64,000 nucleotides of DNA. Source: Polaromonas sp. (GTDB lineage Bacteria > Pseudomonadota > Gammaproteobacteria > Burkholderiales > Burkholderiaceae_C). The stretch spans positions 62,001-126,000 of the forward strand of contig JAAFIP010000007.1 of NCBI GenBank assembly GCA_013297865.1, read 5' to 3'. Within the stretch, counting starts at the first letter, position 1. The number at the start of each line of letters is the position of its first letter. Below the pieces are notes generated by a model. It saw nothing but the letters and a program-made list of their open reading frames with translations. It ran no database searches and was not told where the DNA came from. The translations under genes and the position numbers were made by a program. This document shows positions 5,245 through 14,001 of the stretch, piece after piece.

Positions 5245-5293
5245 GCTACTAAATTAATAGCTGCTCCCGCGATATTCTATTGGTCTGGAGGCC
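5245..5293. repeat. Dispersed 49-bp element, copy 1 (intergenic)
   Basis: Core ATAGCTGCTCCCGCGATAT followed by TCTATTGG and a CTGGAGGCC end. It lies between the convergent uvrA and Bro-N genes, 12 bp after the uvrA stop. The left part forms GCTAC-N7-ATAGC, a short inverted repeat shared by most copies. The 75-bp gap holds nothing else obvious. Confidence 0.85.
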
Positions 5294-5308
5294 GATTTGA
5301 TTATCAAT

Positions 5309-6238
5309 TTACTTCTTTCTGGGTGCTTTTCTCAGCACAGATTTTGAAGGCGGACTTGTTTGCGTCACTGGCAATGCAGACGGTGCCATGTCGTCTGTGC
5401 CAGCGATGGACAGGTAGTTGGCGCGGCTGACTACAGATTTGCCGGTTTTGGCCTCCAGCGCCTTGCGGGCATTGCCAGCGATTTTGCCGCCTTCCCTGGC
5501 AGAGCTGCGGTTTTCTACAAAACCCAGCGCATCGCTGCGGCGAGCTATCTCGGTAGTGCTGGCCTCACCCAGCATCGTGAAGATCAACTCCAGGTCGGTC
5601 ATGTGGTCGCGCAGGTTGTTGCCGGTTTTCACCACGTCCAGCCCTTTGTGCAGACTGTGCTCACCGGGCGTCAGGCCAAAGGTGGCGCGGGCGATCTCAG
5701 CGGTGAGGATGGAGTACTCTTTGCCTTCTGCCACGCCACGCGCCTTCCATTCGTCGGTCAACTCGCCACGCACTGAGATAGAGCGCATGCGCTTCTCAAT
5801 CCACGCCTGTGGGTAACCCTTGGCTTGGTACAGCTCGCGGGCGCGTGCGCTGGCGAGCTCGGGGTTTTCGATCTCTTTCACTCGCTCGTAGCCTACTTGC
5901 GCCAGCCAGCGTTTGAACGGCTCTGCCTTGGGCGAAGGAATGGACTGGATGATGCGAAACAAACCTTCTGTGTTGGCACAGTTGGTTGCACGCAGTTTGC
6001 CATCGGGTGCTTGCAAAGGAAGGGGGGTACAAGTTGTACCCCAGTTGGCATCCAGGGCGGCGTCACGGCTGCGCATTTTCTTAATGTACTGCCGCGCGTC
6101 AACAGAGTCGGTCAACACCGAGACCACGTCAACCAGCGCAAACCACCATTCGCCATCATGCCAAACGCGGCGGATAGTGGTTTCCTGAAAAACAGCAATA
6201 TGGTTTGCAGAATCGTTATGTGAGGACGGTTTGGTCAT
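5309..6238 (-). CDS. Bro-N domain (phage antirepressor-type) protein, DinD-like
   Basis: 309 residues. The N-terminus (about residues 10-110), with RRVWHDGEWWFALVDVV and VDARQYIKKMR, is a Bro-N domain as found in phage antirepressors and BRO proteins. The C-terminal half carries the REGGKIAGNARKALEAKTG stretch, like the SOS protein DinD. A perfect CTGT-N8-ACAG box lies 24 bp upstream of the ATG (6262-6277), which suggests LexA control, as for dinD in E. coli. The exact function is unknown. The gene is convergent with uvrA. Phage or plasmid ancestry is possible, but no other phage genes are adjacent. Confidence is high for the domain and low for the role. Confidence 0.8.
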   Translation of the reverse strand: MTKPSSHNDSANHIAVFQETTIRRVWHDGEWWFALVDVVSVLTDSVDARQYIKKMRSRDAALDANWGTTCTPLPLQAPDGKLRATNCANTEGLFRIIQSIPSPKAEPFKRWLAQVGYERVKEIENPELASARARELYQAKGYPQAWIEKRMRSISVRGELTDEWKARGVAEGKEYSILTAEIARATFGLTPGEHSLHKGLDVVKTGNNLRDHMTDLELIFTMLGEASTTEIARRSDALGFVENRSSAREGGKIAGNARKALEAKTGKSVVSRANYLSIAGTDDMAPSALPVTQTSPPSKSVLRKAPRKK

Positions 6239-6261
6239 GGCGTGCCTGTTTTACTGATTTG

Positions 6262-6277
6262 CTGTTATTTTATACAG
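6262..6277 (-). promoter_or_regulatory. LexA-type SOS box upstream of the Bro-N gene
   Basis: CTGTTATTTTATACAG on the plus strand is a perfect match to the CTGT-N8-ACAG LexA pattern. It is centred about 31 bp before the start codon of the minus-strand Bro-N gene. The same 16-mer recurs exactly at 9237-9252. Confidence 0.75.
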
Positions 6278-6380
6278 TATTCTTAGCAAGCAATTTCAGT
6301 CTGTAGCGCTGCACGAAAATTTAATTCACGAACAAAGAAACCCAGGCAAAACCGCAAACCGAATCAGCAACAACCGTTTG

Positions 6381-7235
6381 TCACGCGCTCAGCACCAGCT
6401 CGTTGGCCAGCTGGTGCAGGCGCTGCCAGGGCGCGGTCAGGTCTTCCAGCACGCTGAAGTGGTTGCGCTCGGGCACGGTCTCACACACGGGCACGGTTTG
6501 CTTGCCCCAGGCGCTTTGCATCAGGCCGTTGTGGCGCACAAACTCGGGGCTTTCATCCGCGCCCACCAGGGTGTAGAGCTTGCCTTGGCGTGGGCGTGGC
6601 AGCCAGGCCGGGCTGGCCAGAAGCACCTGCTCGGGCGTGAGCTGCAGCGACTCTTTGAGGAAGGGCGTGTGCATCACCGGCTCCAGGTCATACAGGCCAG
6701 AGATCGACATGGCATGCTTCACCAGATCGGCAGGCAAGTCTTTGGCATATGCGGGCCAGAGGCAAGCCAGCAGCATGGTGGCCAAATGCCCACCGGCCGA
6801 GTGACCAATCACGGTAATGCGCTGCGGGTCGCCGCCATAGGTGTGGGCGTTGCGATAGGTCCAGGCCAGCGCCTTGACCATCTGCATCACGATCTGCGGC
6901 AGCGTCACCGCTGGGCACAACGCATAGTTGGGCACCACCACGCAAGCCCCCTGGTTCACAAAACCCGGTGCAATAAACGAATGCTCCGATTTGTCCAGTG
7001 AGCGCCAATAGCCGCCATGGATAAACACCACTACCGGCGCGCCCGGCTGGCGGCTGGGAAACACATCCAGCTTCTCCATCGCACCATCGCCATAGGCAAT
7101 GTCGCACTGGTTGGCATGCGCGCTGCGTGCATCTTCAGACGCCTCCGCCCACTGACCAAAATGCCGCGCATGGTCTGGCACCAGCGCGCGGTTGTTGTAC
7201 ATGCGGTCCAGGAATTGGGGGTCAAATTCAGCCAT
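6381..7235 (-). CDS. Alpha/beta hydrolase, kynurenine-formamidase/esterase-like
   Basis: 284 residues. An oxyanion-hole HGGYW motif (near residue 74) and the nucleophile elbow GHSAGG (near 144) place it in the hormone-sensitive-lipase/arylformamidase-like alpha/beta hydrolases. The catalytic acid lies probably in VGADESPEF and the histidine in PERNHFS. It has no signal peptide, so it is probably cytoplasmic. Kynurenine formamidase activity (N-formylkynurenine to kynurenine) is a plausible subfamily role, but no kyn genes are nearby, so the substrate is open. It lies downstream of the HAD phosphatase on the same strand with a 76-bp gap. Confidence 0.82.
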   Translation of the reverse strand: MAEFDPQFLDRMYNNRALVPDHARHFGQWAEASEDARSAHANQCDIAYGDGAMEKLDVFPSRQPGAPVVVFIHGGYWRSLDKSEHSFIAPGFVNQGACVVVPNYALCPAVTLPQIVMQMVKALAWTYRNAHTYGGDPQRITVIGHSAGGHLATMLLACLWPAYAKDLPADLVKHAMSISGLYDLEPVMHTPFLKESLQLTPEQVLLASPAWLPRPRQGKLYTLVGADESPEFVRHNGLMQSAWGKQTVPVCETVPERNHFSVLEDLTAPWQRLHQLANELVLSA

Positions 7236-7311
7236 GGGGAAAATCCTTCAGAAGTCACGCAGCCTGCTATCTTGGCACAACTCTCGGTGGCCTGGCTGTC
7301 TGGAAGTGAGT

Positions 7312-8127
7312 CTAACGGGAGAGCAGCGCAGCACTGAACTGCGCAAACCCCGCCCCACGCTCGCCTAGCGTCACATAGCGCGGCAGGTGGCTCAGCTGGG
7401 GCACGAAACGTGCGATGTTGGCTACACCGATGCTGTGGGGGAAGGCCTCGAACATGAGCTGGTCGTTGGTGGAGTCGCCGATGTAGGCCCACTGGTGCAT
7501 TTCGGCGCTCAGGTCGCGGCCCAGCAGCTGCTGGGTGATCCAGCGTGCGCCTTGCAGTTTGTTGTGGTCGCCGTACCAGGCGTTGATGTGGATGCTGCTG
7601 ACGGTGGCGTGCATGCCGGCTTGCTGCATCAGGCGCACTACCTGGGCGATGCGCTCAGGCGGTAAATGTGTGAACTCGCTGTGGTCAATGGCGATGTCGG
7701 TCTCGCGGCCGGGGCTGTCGGTGCTGCGCTGCGCGCCGGGCACTTCGCGCTCGATATGCGCCAGCACCTGCTGCATACGTGCGTAATGGTGGGCACGCTG
7801 CGCTGCATCGGTTTGATATGATTTTGATAGCTGCTCGCGCAATATTCTATTGGGCTGGTGGCCTGTTAGACTAATATTTCGCAGTGCAACAGCGCCGTTT
7901 TCTGCCACGATGGCGTCTACCGGCCAGGCCAATGCAAACTCTTCGCTCCAGCCCACCGGGCGGCCTGTGATGGCGATGACATGCAGGCCTGCGGCCTTCA
8001 AATCGTGCAGCGCCTGCAGGGCCTCGGGCGTGATCGCGCCGTTGGTGGTGAGGGTGTCGTCAATGTCGGTAAAGACACCGGTGATGCGGCGGCGGTCTGC
8101 CAAGGGCCAGGTGGAAAGAGCTTGCAT
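7312..8127 (-). CDS. HAD-superfamily hydrolase (type IIB, MPGP/SPP-like phosphatase)
   Basis: 271 residues. HAD motif I is DIDDTLTTNG near residue 21, motif II ITGRP near 54, and the motif IV region GDSTND near 217. This arrangement, with a C2B-type cap, is shared with mannosyl-3-phosphoglycerate and sucrose phosphatases and Cof-type phosphatases; the substrate is unknown. Residues around 89-105 (NRILREQL) are encoded by a dispersed element copy (7815-7863) sitting in the cap-side part of the protein, not in a motif. The start codon is only 2 bp after the DUF1016 stop, so it is probably co-transcribed with that SOS-boxed gene. Confidence 0.85.
   Translation of the reverse strand: MQALSTWPLADRRRITGVFTDIDDTLTTNGAITPEALQALHDLKAAGLHVIAITGRPVGWSEEFALAWPVDAIVAENGAVALRNISLTGHQPNRILREQLSKSYQTDAAQRAHHYARMQQVLAHIEREVPGAQRSTDSPGRETDIAIDHSEFTHLPPERIAQVVRLMQQAGMHATVSSIHINAWYGDHNKLQGARWITQQLLGRDLSAEMHQWAYIGDSTNDQLMFEAFPHSIGVANIARFVPQLSHLPRYVTLGERGAGFAQFSAALLSR
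7815..7863. repeat. Dispersed 49-bp element, copy 2, inside HAD phosphatase gene
   Basis: Near-consensus copy (ATAGCTGCTCGCGCAATAT, then TCTATTGG and a CTGGTGGCC end). It is translated on the minus strand as NRILREQL within the HAD phosphatase, a frame used by no other copy here. Confidence 0.85.
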
Positions 8128-8129
8128 GC

Positions 8130-9221
8130 TTAAATGGTTTCTGCGCTGGCCAGCTCGCGTTCAATCTGCTCAATGCTGGGCAGCTTGGAGGCCAGAGAGG
8201 TGGGCAGGGCGCGGGTCAGTTCAAAGGTGGAGATGCCAATGGGGGTGTCCATGCCGCGCAGCGCGTATTCGGCAATCACCTCATTGTGCTGCTGGCACAG
8301 TATCAGGCCAATGGTGGGCGCGTCTTGGGCATGGCGCAGCGTGTCGTCCACCACACTGCAGTAAAAATGCATCTTGCCAGCATATTCGGGCTTAAAAGCG
8401 CCGCGCTTGAGCTCCACCACCACAAAGCAGCGCAGGCGCAGGTGATAAAACAGCAGGTCGATATAAAAATCCTGATCGCCTACGGCCAGATGGTGCTGCC
8501 GCCCCACAAAGGCAAAGCCCTGGCCCAGCTCCATCAAAAACTTTTCCAGATGCTGCACCAGGCCGGTCTCCAGCTCGCATTCGTGAAAGGGCTGCTCCAG
8601 GGTCAGAAAGTCAAACAGATACGGGTCTTTCAGCGTTTGCTGCACCAGATCAGACTGCGGCCTGGGCAGGCGCTGCACAAAGTTGCTGGTGGATTTGCCT
8701 TGGCGGTGGTGGGCAGCAGTCTCAATCTGCATCTGCAACACACTGCGGCTCCAGCCGTTGGCGCGCGCGGCCTGCATATACCAATGGCGCGTGGGCAGGT
8801 CCTTGGTCTTTTCCATCAGCATCAGGTGGTGCCCCCAGGGAATGGCTTGCACCAGCTCAGCACTGAAAAGTGCCACGGCTTGTGGCACTTTTGCTTCTCG
8901 CGGCAACGGTGCCACCGGCTGTGGCACAAAGGCCAGCAAGGGGTATTCGCGGTAAAAAGCCAGCATGCGTTTGATGTTACGTTCGGAAAAGCCTTTTTCG
9001 TCGGGCAGCTCATTGCGAATGTCCAGCGCCAGCCGGGGTATCACCGCAGCGCCCCAGCCCTCGATGGCCTGGCGGGTATCGAGCATTTGCCCAATTTCCC
9101 AGTACAGGCGAATCAGCTCAGCGTTCACCGCCAGCACCGCCCTGGCCTGCGCATGCCGGATGCGCTGCTTCACTTCAGCCAACAATGCTGAGTAGTGAAC
9201 AAGAGGCTGCGGCAGATTCAT
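8130..9221 (-). CDS. DUF1016 family protein with PDDEXK nuclease domain (YhcG-like)
   Basis: 363 residues. The N-terminal DUF1016 helical region (ARAVLAVNAELIRLYWEIG, KGFSERNIKRMLAFY, PWGHHLMLMEK) is followed by a PDDEXK-type nuclease-like half with DFYIDLLFYHLRLRCFVVVE and an ELK motif. Family members are mostly uncharacterised putative nucleases often found near mobile or restriction loci. A LexA-type box is 15 bp upstream of the ATG. Residues about 99-117 (VAPLPREAKVPQ and flanks) look inserted relative to the family and are encoded by two adjacent hairpins (8870-8927). The HAD gene follows after 2 bp. Confidence 0.85.
   Translation of the reverse strand: MNLPQPLVHYSALLAEVKQRIRHAQARAVLAVNAELIRLYWEIGQMLDTRQAIEGWGAAVIPRLALDIRNELPDEKGFSERNIKRMLAFYREYPLLAFVPQPVAPLPREAKVPQAVALFSAELVQAIPWGHHLMLMEKTKDLPTRHWYMQAARANGWSRSVLQMQIETAAHHRQGKSTSNFVQRLPRPQSDLVQQTLKDPYLFDFLTLEQPFHECELETGLVQHLEKFLMELGQGFAFVGRQHHLAVGDQDFYIDLLFYHLRLRCFVVVELKRGAFKPEYAGKMHFYCSVVDDTLRHAQDAPTIGLILCQQHNEVIAEYALRGMDTPIGISTFELTRALPTSLASKLPSIEQIERELASAETI
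8870..8927. repeat. Twin GTGCCAC/GTGGCAC hairpins inside the DUF1016 gene
   Basis: Two adjacent palindromes, GTGCCACGGCTTGTGGCAC (8870-8888) and GTGCCACCGGCTGTGGCAC (8909-8927), each with a 7-bp perfect stem and a 5-nt loop, spaced 20 bp apart. They are translated in frame and coincide with extra residues not expected from the DUF1016 family pattern. Confidence 0.7.
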
Positions 9222-9236
9222 GGCGTCACTGTAAAA

Positions 9237-9252
9237 CTGTTATTTTATACAG
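9237..9252 (-). promoter_or_regulatory. LexA-type SOS box upstream of DUF1016 gene
   Basis: CTGTTATTTTATACAG, identical over 16 bp (18 bp with the following TA) to the box at 6262-6277. It lies 15 bp before the start codon, so repressor binding would overlap the promoter or start region. Confidence 0.75.
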
Positions 9253-9333
9253 TAATCTTCCCTGTCTCAAGTAAGGGCATTGGCAGGTAATGGCCGCTTT
9301 GGTAACAAAGTCGTGGCCACGGGTTGACGGGTA

Positions 9334-12340: not shown

Positions 12341-12360
12341 TATTAAGTTAAAATATTAAT

Positions 12361-12465
12361 ATCCGAGGAGCGCTGCAGGTCACGCAAAATGATCGAGGCT
12401 CGGAAACGCCGCTTAAATATGGTTTTAAGGGGTTCAAGTTTCTAACTGCGCTCACCCACTGAAAA
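12361..12465 (+). ncRNA. SAH riboswitch upstream of ahcY
   Basis: The start CCGAGGAGCGCTGCAGG, the later AGGCTCGGAAACGCCG and the downstream CTGCGCTCACCCA reproduce the conserved blocks of the S-adenosylhomocysteine riboswitch: the P1 pair CCGAG/CTCGG and the pseudoknot partner GCGCTGC/GCGCTCAC region. In this class, SAH binding turns on the SAH hydrolase gene downstream, which is exactly the gene present. A CTCACC (12451-12456) / GGTGAG (12472-12477) pairing just downstream could be the competing expression-platform helix. The boundaries are approximate. Confidence 0.9.
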
Positions 12466-12552
12466 CTGTGCGGTGAGTGCTTCGGGCAAACCCCCTGGCA
12501 ATTTTTTCTCACGACAGTCTCAGTGGCTCGTTCACCTATAACGGAGCACACT

Positions 12553-14001
12553 ATGAACGCTGTTGTCAAACCCCTGAAAAAGCAAGATTACGCAGTTGCG
12601 GACTTGTCCCTGGCCGCTTTTGGCCGCAAAGAAATGAACATCGCCGAGACCGAAATGCCTGGCCTGATGGCCATCCGCGAAGAGTTCTCCAAGAGCAAGC
12701 CGCTCAAGGGTGCGCGTATCACCGGCTCGCTGCACATGACCATCCAGACCGCTGTGCTGGTCGAAACCCTGCAGGCTCTGGGGGCTGACGTGCGCTGGGC
12801 ATCGTGCAACATCTTCTCCACCCAGGACCACGCCGCTGCGGCCCTGGTGGCTGAAGGCACACCCGTGTTTGCCTACAAAGGCGAGTCGCTGGAAGACTAC
12901 TGGGATTACACCCACCGCATTTTTGAATTCGGCGACAAGGGCTCCAAAACCGAAGGCCCCAACATGATCCTGGACGACGGCGGCGACGCAACGCTGCTGA
13001 TGCACCTGGGCACCAAGGCCGAGAAGGACATCAAAGTGTTGGCCAAGCCCGGCAGCGAAGAAGAAAAATGCCTGTTTGCCGCCATCAAGGCCAAGCTGCG
13101 TGTGGACCCCACCTGGTACAGCCGCCGTCTGAAAAATATCATCGGCGTAACCGAAGAGACCACCACCGGCGTGCTGCGCCTGAACGAAATGTCTGCCAAG
13201 GGCACTCTGGCCCTGCGCGCCATCAACGTGAACGACTCGGTGACCAAGAGCAAGTTTGACAACCTGTATGGCTGCCGCGAATCACTGGTGGACGCCATCA
13301 AGCGCGCCACCGACGTGATGATCGCTGGCAAGATTGCCGTAGTCACCGGCTACGGCGACGTGGGCAAGGGCTCAGCCCAGGCCCTGCGCGCCCTGAGCGC
13401 CCAGGTGTGGGTGACCGAGGTGGACCCGATCAACGCACTGCAGGCTGCGATGGAAGGCTACAAAGTGGTGACCATGGAATATGCTGCCGACAAAGCCGAC
13501 ATTTTTGTGTCAGCCACCGGCAACAAAAACGTCATCACCCACGACCACATGGTGGCGATGAAAGACCAGGCGATTGTCTGCAACATCGGTCACTTCGATA
13601 ACGAAATCGACGTGGCTTCACTGGAAAAATACAAGTGGGAAGAGATCAAGCCCCAAGTGGACCACGTCATCTTCCCGGCCAAAGGCAAAAAGCCTTCCAG
13701 GCGCATCATCCTGCTGGCCAAGGGCCGTTTGGTCAACCTGGGCTGCGGCACCGGCCACCCCAGCTTTGTGATGAGCTCCAGCTTTGCCAACCAGACGATT
13801 GCGCAGATCGAGCTGTTCACCAAGCAAAAAGACTACAAGGTCGGCCAGGTCTATGTGCTGCCCAAGCACCTGGACGAAAAAGTCGCCCGCCTGCACCTCA
13901 AGAAAGTCGGCGCTGAGCTGACCAAGCTGACCAAAGAGCAGGCCGACTATATCGGTGTCTCGCAGGACGGCCCTTACAAGGCTAATACCTACCGCTACTA
14001 A
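12553..14001 (+). CDS. ahcY: S-adenosylhomocysteine hydrolase
   Basis: Cytosolic NAD-dependent enzyme splitting SAH into homocysteine and adenosine, relieving product inhibition of methyltransferases. 482 residues from ATG 12553, chosen over an in-frame ATG 30 bp upstream because of the ACGGAG ribosome site and the family-type N-terminus. The NAD-binding [14 protein letters not shown] is near residue 266, the substrate region [11 protein letters not shown] near 65, and the C-terminal KPNTYRY-like end is KANTYRY. The SAH riboswitch in its 5' leader implies induction by its own substrate. tlyA and metF follow on the same strand. Confidence 0.98.

Follow-up and report, generated by a model that had tools for sequence, protein, structure and literature searches.

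Two genes lying 3 kb apart in a 64,000-nucleotide (nt) stretch of a Polaromonas sp. genome of 4.0 Mb (genome G000, contig C25, positions 62001-126000; hereafter the window) are preceded by the same LexA-type box, which raises the question of whether they share a regulator and where the common sequence came from. One encodes a DUF1016/YhcG protein of the PD-(D/E)XK nuclease family and the other a protein with a Bro-N domain. The minus-strand genes of the locus are, in the order of transcription, prfC, the DUF1016/YhcG gene, a gene for a HAD-IIB phosphatase, an alpha/beta hydrolase gene and the Bro-N gene, with uvrA converging on them from the plus strand (Table 1). The comparisons described below suggest that the DUF1016 gene probably acquired an SOS promoter of the Bro-N type, leaving two accessory genes behind copies of one SOS promoter.

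The sequence CTGTTATTTTATACAG (in the direction of transcription, CTGTATAAAATAACAG) is present exactly twice in the window, as the preliminary description had stated, and no third copy with three or fewer mismatches was found elsewhere in the 64 kb. In 100 dinucleotide shuffles searched at the same tolerance, matches averaged 0.11, and no shuffle gave two. The box ends 15 nt before the ATG of the DUF1016 gene (9221), the distance first reported, and 23 nt, not 24, before that of the Bro-N gene (6238).

The boxes were compared with the SOS motif of the genome itself. Its single lexA gene is preceded by two tandem boxes, CTGGTTTAATATACAG and CTGGATAAGAAATCAG, and its recA gene by CTGTAATCAATAGCAG and CTGGTTATGCACACAG, paired in both cases and close to the CTGT-N8-ACAG consensus; in the E. 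coli dinD control region, the same scan recovered the known box CTGTATATAAATACAG. A different motif in the lexA and recA promoters had been named beforehand as evidence against a LexA-type reading, and the motif proved to be the same. The DUF1016 box also overlaps the -10 element of a predicted sigma-70 promoter (TTGAGA-17-TAAAAT, 9270-9242). An operator of the CTGT-N8-ACAG type, placed in a promoter region and matching the genome's own lexA and recA sites, is the mark of the LexA/SOS regulon, and the window boxes are likely to be LexA-type operators. In a genome-wide survey by pattern searches, the two boxes were the only window sites among the CTGT-N8-ACAG matches listed. Elsewhere in the genome, exact AT-rich boxes lie across the start of a radical S-adenosylmethionine (SAM) gene and ahead of two genes identified by their sequences only, one apparently YifB/ComM-like and the other small and toxin-like. 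That the sites are AT-rich palindromes with another role in vivo, rather than LexA operators, is very unlikely indeed: the 56 CTGT-N8-ACAG sites of the genome, many of them within genes, would suit such an account, but fully A/T cores are rare (8 of about 50 sites listed, two of the eight being the window boxes), the two boxes are each followed closely by a start codon, at 15 and 23 nt, and the lexA and recA promoters share their motif.

The likeness between the two loci extends beyond the box. A direct-repeat search found 22 of 23 nt identical between 6262-6284 and 9237-9259, and 17 of 22 nt identical from the start codon upwards (6235-6256 and 9218-9239) in a register shifted by 8 nt. By gapped alignment the leaders can be matched over about 50 nt, through ATGA, with a single 8-nt indel, the alignment reading AAGA(A/T)TACTGTATAAAATAA, the 8-nt gap, and then CAGT...ACAG..ACGCCATGA. 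When the 28 nt leading up to and covering the start codon were scored on their own, just one in 6000 pairs of this genome's start regions did better; this null was preferred over an empirical null of pooled boxes, which is biased because the pool includes loci fetched with a similar pattern. Since they align over some 50 nt, well past the box, the two leaders are, judging from sequence, copies of one sequence. A common origin of the boxes, which had been put forward from their identity alongside common regulation, is thus supported and extends across the whole leader.

A Bro-N gene from another genus (genome G086, loci L103/L220) provided a further leader for comparison. Its product is 74.6% identical to the window Bro-N protein over residues 1-185, its box is CTGTATAAAATTACAG, and its leader, ACTGTATAAAATTACAGTTTTTCAG-GGCGCC, is close to the DUF1016 leader, with a score of 46 against the latter and 34 against the window Bro-N leader. 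It differs from the window locus in having no DUF1016, HAD, prfC or uvrA gene within 7 kb, and a standard start codon was not seen at the expected place.

The distribution of boxes among relatives of the two genes was strongly uneven. A close upstream box was found at six of the 30 Bro-N family loci (the window, L103, L105, L118, L120 and L123). In two of these six, the box is an exact LexA match that lies between a stop-broken Bro-N gene and a DinG-like helicase gene of opposite orientation; the arrangement is seen at about 7024 of L223 (genome G294) and at about 6151 of L224 (genome G283). Among DUF1016 relatives, the close ones of which carry labels mostly of Burkholderiales and other betaproteobacteria, no convincing box was present within 250 bp at any of 80 named loci, none was found at 34 viral loci, and 29 plus 60 family loci gave a single borderline case, so that about 200 relatives in all were screened with one borderline box. 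No box precedes the G253 and G377 orthologues either, which are about 80% identical and occupy the same uvrA...HAD region of the chromosome. On these results, conserved LexA control of DUF1016 genes was rejected, and the SOS box on the window gene seems to be a rare and recent acquisition.

The borderline case, in genome G206, is a near-consensus box, CTGTATGAATATATAG (L292, 1909-1924), 31 bp before a DUF1016 gene whose product is 46% identical, and could be a second, independent instance; it was kept as borderline because such near-sites turned up in control sequence at a rate of one in about 75 kb. At another locus (L213, genome G204), an SOS-like box, ACTGTATAAAAATACACATTTCCAG, precedes a gene whose sequence reads as that of a DNA methyltransferase.

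Because boxes recur on Bro-N genes and are practically absent from DUF1016 relatives, the promoter appears to be new on the DUF1016 gene, and its donor would most simply have been a Bro-N gene. The boxes could instead have arisen independently, in mobile pools of damage-linked genes where selection made the same good LexA site twice near start codons. The same 18-mer does occur on 13 viral contigs in unrelated contexts, and boxes of the form ACTGTATAAAA precede further genes of SOS type (radical SAM, ImuA-like) within the family. Such an origin is nevertheless unlikely, because the identity includes the AAGA upstream and the CAGT...ACAG..ACGCCATGA downstream, which lie outside any LexA consensus, and because DUF1016 genes elsewhere practically never have a box.

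Several points weigh against copying of an SOS promoter as the origin of a defence pair. The recurrence of TACTGTATAAAATAACAG on unrelated viral contigs indicates that the box alone can arise repeatedly, and the case for copying therefore rests on the flanks. The leaders were compared after the sequences had been seen, and the pattern covering the DUF1016 and G086 Bro-N leaders, which gave zero-mismatch matches at only those two genes in 400 family genomes, was written from the two loci it recovered and shows rarity without being an independent test. The promoter scan gave no passing -35 element for the Bro-N copy, and the Bro-N genes closest in sequence (82% and 76% identical) are without a box. 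The genus is represented by one genome, and family membership is the only ground for a role in defence.

With regard to the proteins, the DUF1016 product contains both full-length domains of its family, DUF1016_N and YhcG_C (1.6e-36 and 4.9e-64; PF17761 and PF06250 at 125.8 and 215.4 bits, above the gathering score). DUF1016 has been assigned to the PD-(D/E)XK superfamily (PMC1913061), and the acidic residue and (D/E)xK motif expected in the core of this fold are present: E231, D255, L271 and K272 are invariant, position 270 is E or D, and the (E/D)-L-K motif at 270-272 is intact. The family identity given in the preliminary description was upheld. A sequence search of solved structures gave no match to the DUF1016 protein. 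The top matches of its low-confidence fold model (predicted local distance difference test score, pLDDT, of 64) were weak, none with an E value of 0.001 or below, and all of them were PD-(D/E)XK proteins (MGME1, a Pyrococcus repair endonuclease, Cas4 and RecE). The protein may be an active nuclease. Of the 80 DUF1016 relatives, at least 38 have restriction-modification genes within 4 kb; family members often adjoin such genes and lack a LexA box, whereas the window gene is alone behind an SOS promoter. The literature searched held no mention of DUF1016 together with LexA, and a search on E. coli yhcG and DNA damage gave nothing direct.

The Bro-N protein had been called DinD-like. It resembles E. 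coli dinD (NC_000913.3, b3645) in having a Bro-N domain (PF02498), an upstream LexA box and membership of PADLOC group PDC-S13; the PADLOC profile PDLC04920 covers both proteins, with a cross-match of 2.2e-16 in their C-terminal parts. However, it gave no match to the DinD equivalog model NF008573, to which E. coli DinD scores 488 bits, BLASTP found no convincing match between the two, and hhalign aligned them over 62 columns with a probability of just 50%. Orthology to DinD was rejected on the equivalog and BLASTP results, and the label stands for relatedness but not for identity. E. coli DinD is reported to modulate RecA, according to work cited in PMC4457935, and this activity is not transferable as such to the window protein.

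Relatives of both proteins are found together in type I restriction-modification operons. In that of Limnohabitans sp. T6-5 (L029, 2430-8215), hsdM, DUF1016, hsdS, a Bro-N (DinD-like) gene and RhuM follow in succession, with neighbours overlapping by 4 nt. The window pair differs in being without hsd genes and on separate promoters: no hsdM, hsdS or hsdR was found near either gene, whose neighbours are prfC, HAD, the alpha/beta hydrolase gene and uvrA. Both proteins are also phage-defence candidates in PADLOC (PDC-S02 and PDC-S13).

A different role for the Bro-N gene was considered, namely that it encodes an SOS-driven, Ant-like antirepressor acting on resident prophages, with the DUF1016 gene as unrelated cargo and the pair a relic of mobile DNA rather than a defence module. 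Control of antirepressors by LexA is well established for prophages of Salmonella (PMC3121763), where those of Gifsy offer a precedent for an accessory gene under LexA control, as predicted in the window; the N-terminal domain of the Bro-N protein matches phage antirepressor families, and several Bro-N relatives are stop-broken. The resemblance to Ant is weak, though (1e-6 and worse), while the best family, phrog_15286 (8.5e-91), has no assigned function. The window gene differs from the Gifsy genes in its C-terminal region, no adjacent prophage was identified, and Bro-N relatives occur in restriction-modification operons. An antirepressor role is improbable.

The HAD gene starts 2 nt past the DUF1016 stop codon, the spacing previously noted, and had been proposed to form an SOS module with it. 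In relatives the HAD gene often lies directly behind prfC, with a spacing of 13-46 bp, and in some of them uvrA converges on it from the opposite side. This adjacency indicates that the order prfC-DUF1016-HAD is an insertion into an old pair, and HAD was rejected as a partner of the SOS module by descent. A single DUF1016-HAD operon selected as a repair module would account for the 2-nt spacing and for an SOS promoter upstream of both genes, but at least eight relatives have HAD directly behind prfC with no DUF1016 between, and in no sampled relative does an SOS box precede the DUF1016-HAD pair, which makes such an operon very unlikely. HAD may nonetheless be co-transcribed from the SOS promoter as a by-product. 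The double length of uvrA is real: its open frame has 1969 codons and begins outside the window, 677 nt ahead of it, at position 61324 of C25. Its nearness to the pair, which had been pointed out, is explained by the old prfC-HAD-uvrA neighbourhood, and since no exact or near LexA box was found in the 3.2 kb before and at the uvrA start, a link to uvrA was rejected.

The locus can be accounted for by the insertion of two free-standing accessory genes into the prfC-HAD-uvrA neighbourhood, the DUF1016 gene between prfC and HAD and the Bro-N gene between the alpha/beta hydrolase gene and uvrA. The promoter, leader and start codon would most likely have belonged originally to a Bro-N gene of this type and been copied onto the DUF1016 gene. 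In undamaged cells LexA would sit on an operator overlapping the -10 element and keep both genes low, and upon DNA damage the RecA-driven cleavage of LexA would switch DUF1016 and Bro-N on together. A nuclease-family protein usually tied to restriction-modification would in this way have been put under damage control, with the old HAD gene downstream affected as a side effect.

Table 1. Features of the locus (positions in the window)
Feature	Position	Strand	Basis
prfC	10965-9334	minus	
DUF1016_N + YhcG_C (PD-(D/E)XK nuclease family) gene, 363 amino acids	8130..9221	minus	Pfam; PADLOC PDC-S02; conserved residues
HAD-IIB phosphatase gene, 271 amino acids	7312..8127	minus	Pfam; NCBIfam; synteny in relatives
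Alpha/beta hydrolase gene, 284 amino acids, between HAD and Bro-N	6381..7235	minus	Pfam BD-FAE, Abhydrolase_3
Bro-N (BRO family) DinD-like gene, 309 amino acids	5309..6238	minus	Pfam PF02498, 2.4e-14; PADLOC PDC-S13, 1.3e-115; PHROG 15286
Likely LexA-type operator CTGTATAAAATAACAG before the DUF1016 gene	9237..9252	minus	Exact match; motif of genome lexA and recA; promoter scan
Likely LexA-type operator CTGTATAAAATAACAG before the Bro-N gene	6262..6277	minus	Exact match; also before relatives in other genera
DUF1016 leader AAGATTACTGTATAAAATAACAGTTTTACAGTGACGCCATGA	9218..9259	minus	Direct repeats D4 and D8; gapped alignment
Bro-N leader AAGAATACTGTATAAAATAACAGCAAATCAGTAAAACAGGCACGCCATGA, 8 nt more than the DUF1016 leader	6235..6284	minus	Direct repeats; gapped alignment

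Other features were observed in and around the neighbouring genes. The HAD phosphatase matches the Pfam family Hydrolase_3 (3.8e-14). A dispersed repeat beginning ATAGCTGCTCCCGCGATATTCTATTGGNCTG has 434 matches (209 + 225, with three or fewer mismatches) in the 4-Mb genome, and its reversed control has none. Copies are found at 7824-7873 and 5254-5303 of the window, one of them inside the HAD gene and translated in frame as RNISLTGHQPNRILREQLSKSYQ; HAD relatives have an insert of variable length with similar residues (..GLQ...LSK.YQQ) in the same place. The repeat in HAD thereby resembles palindromic elements that reside within protein genes. A ParE-family toxin-like gene (PF05016, 10978-11379) immediately precedes prfC and has the same orientation. 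An S-adenosylhomocysteine (SAH) riboswitch (RF01057, 47.3 bits, 12359-12460) precedes an open reading frame (12523-14001) that reads as adenosylhomocysteinase, which is the expected arrangement.

DUF1016/YhcG proteins are widespread and largely uncharacterised. What the two genes of this locus share is a copied SOS promoter on restriction-associated accessory genes, rather than a repair operon that includes HAD or uvrA. The pair most likely serves, when induced, to handle or destroy DNA that is damaged or foreign (phage). It is possible, if on balance doubtful, that the duplication of the promoter created a two-gene, SOS-inducible defence regulon of a nuclease-family and a DinD-like gene, in which case damage caused by phages or by restriction would trigger a second, damage-gated layer of DNA destruction. 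Through its second-hand SOS promoter, the DUF1016 gene offers a concrete connection, open to testing, between nuclease-family proteins associated with restriction and the response to DNA damage, and the locus suggests that a regulon may grow when a promoter, operator and leader of 50 bp are copied between accessory genes.

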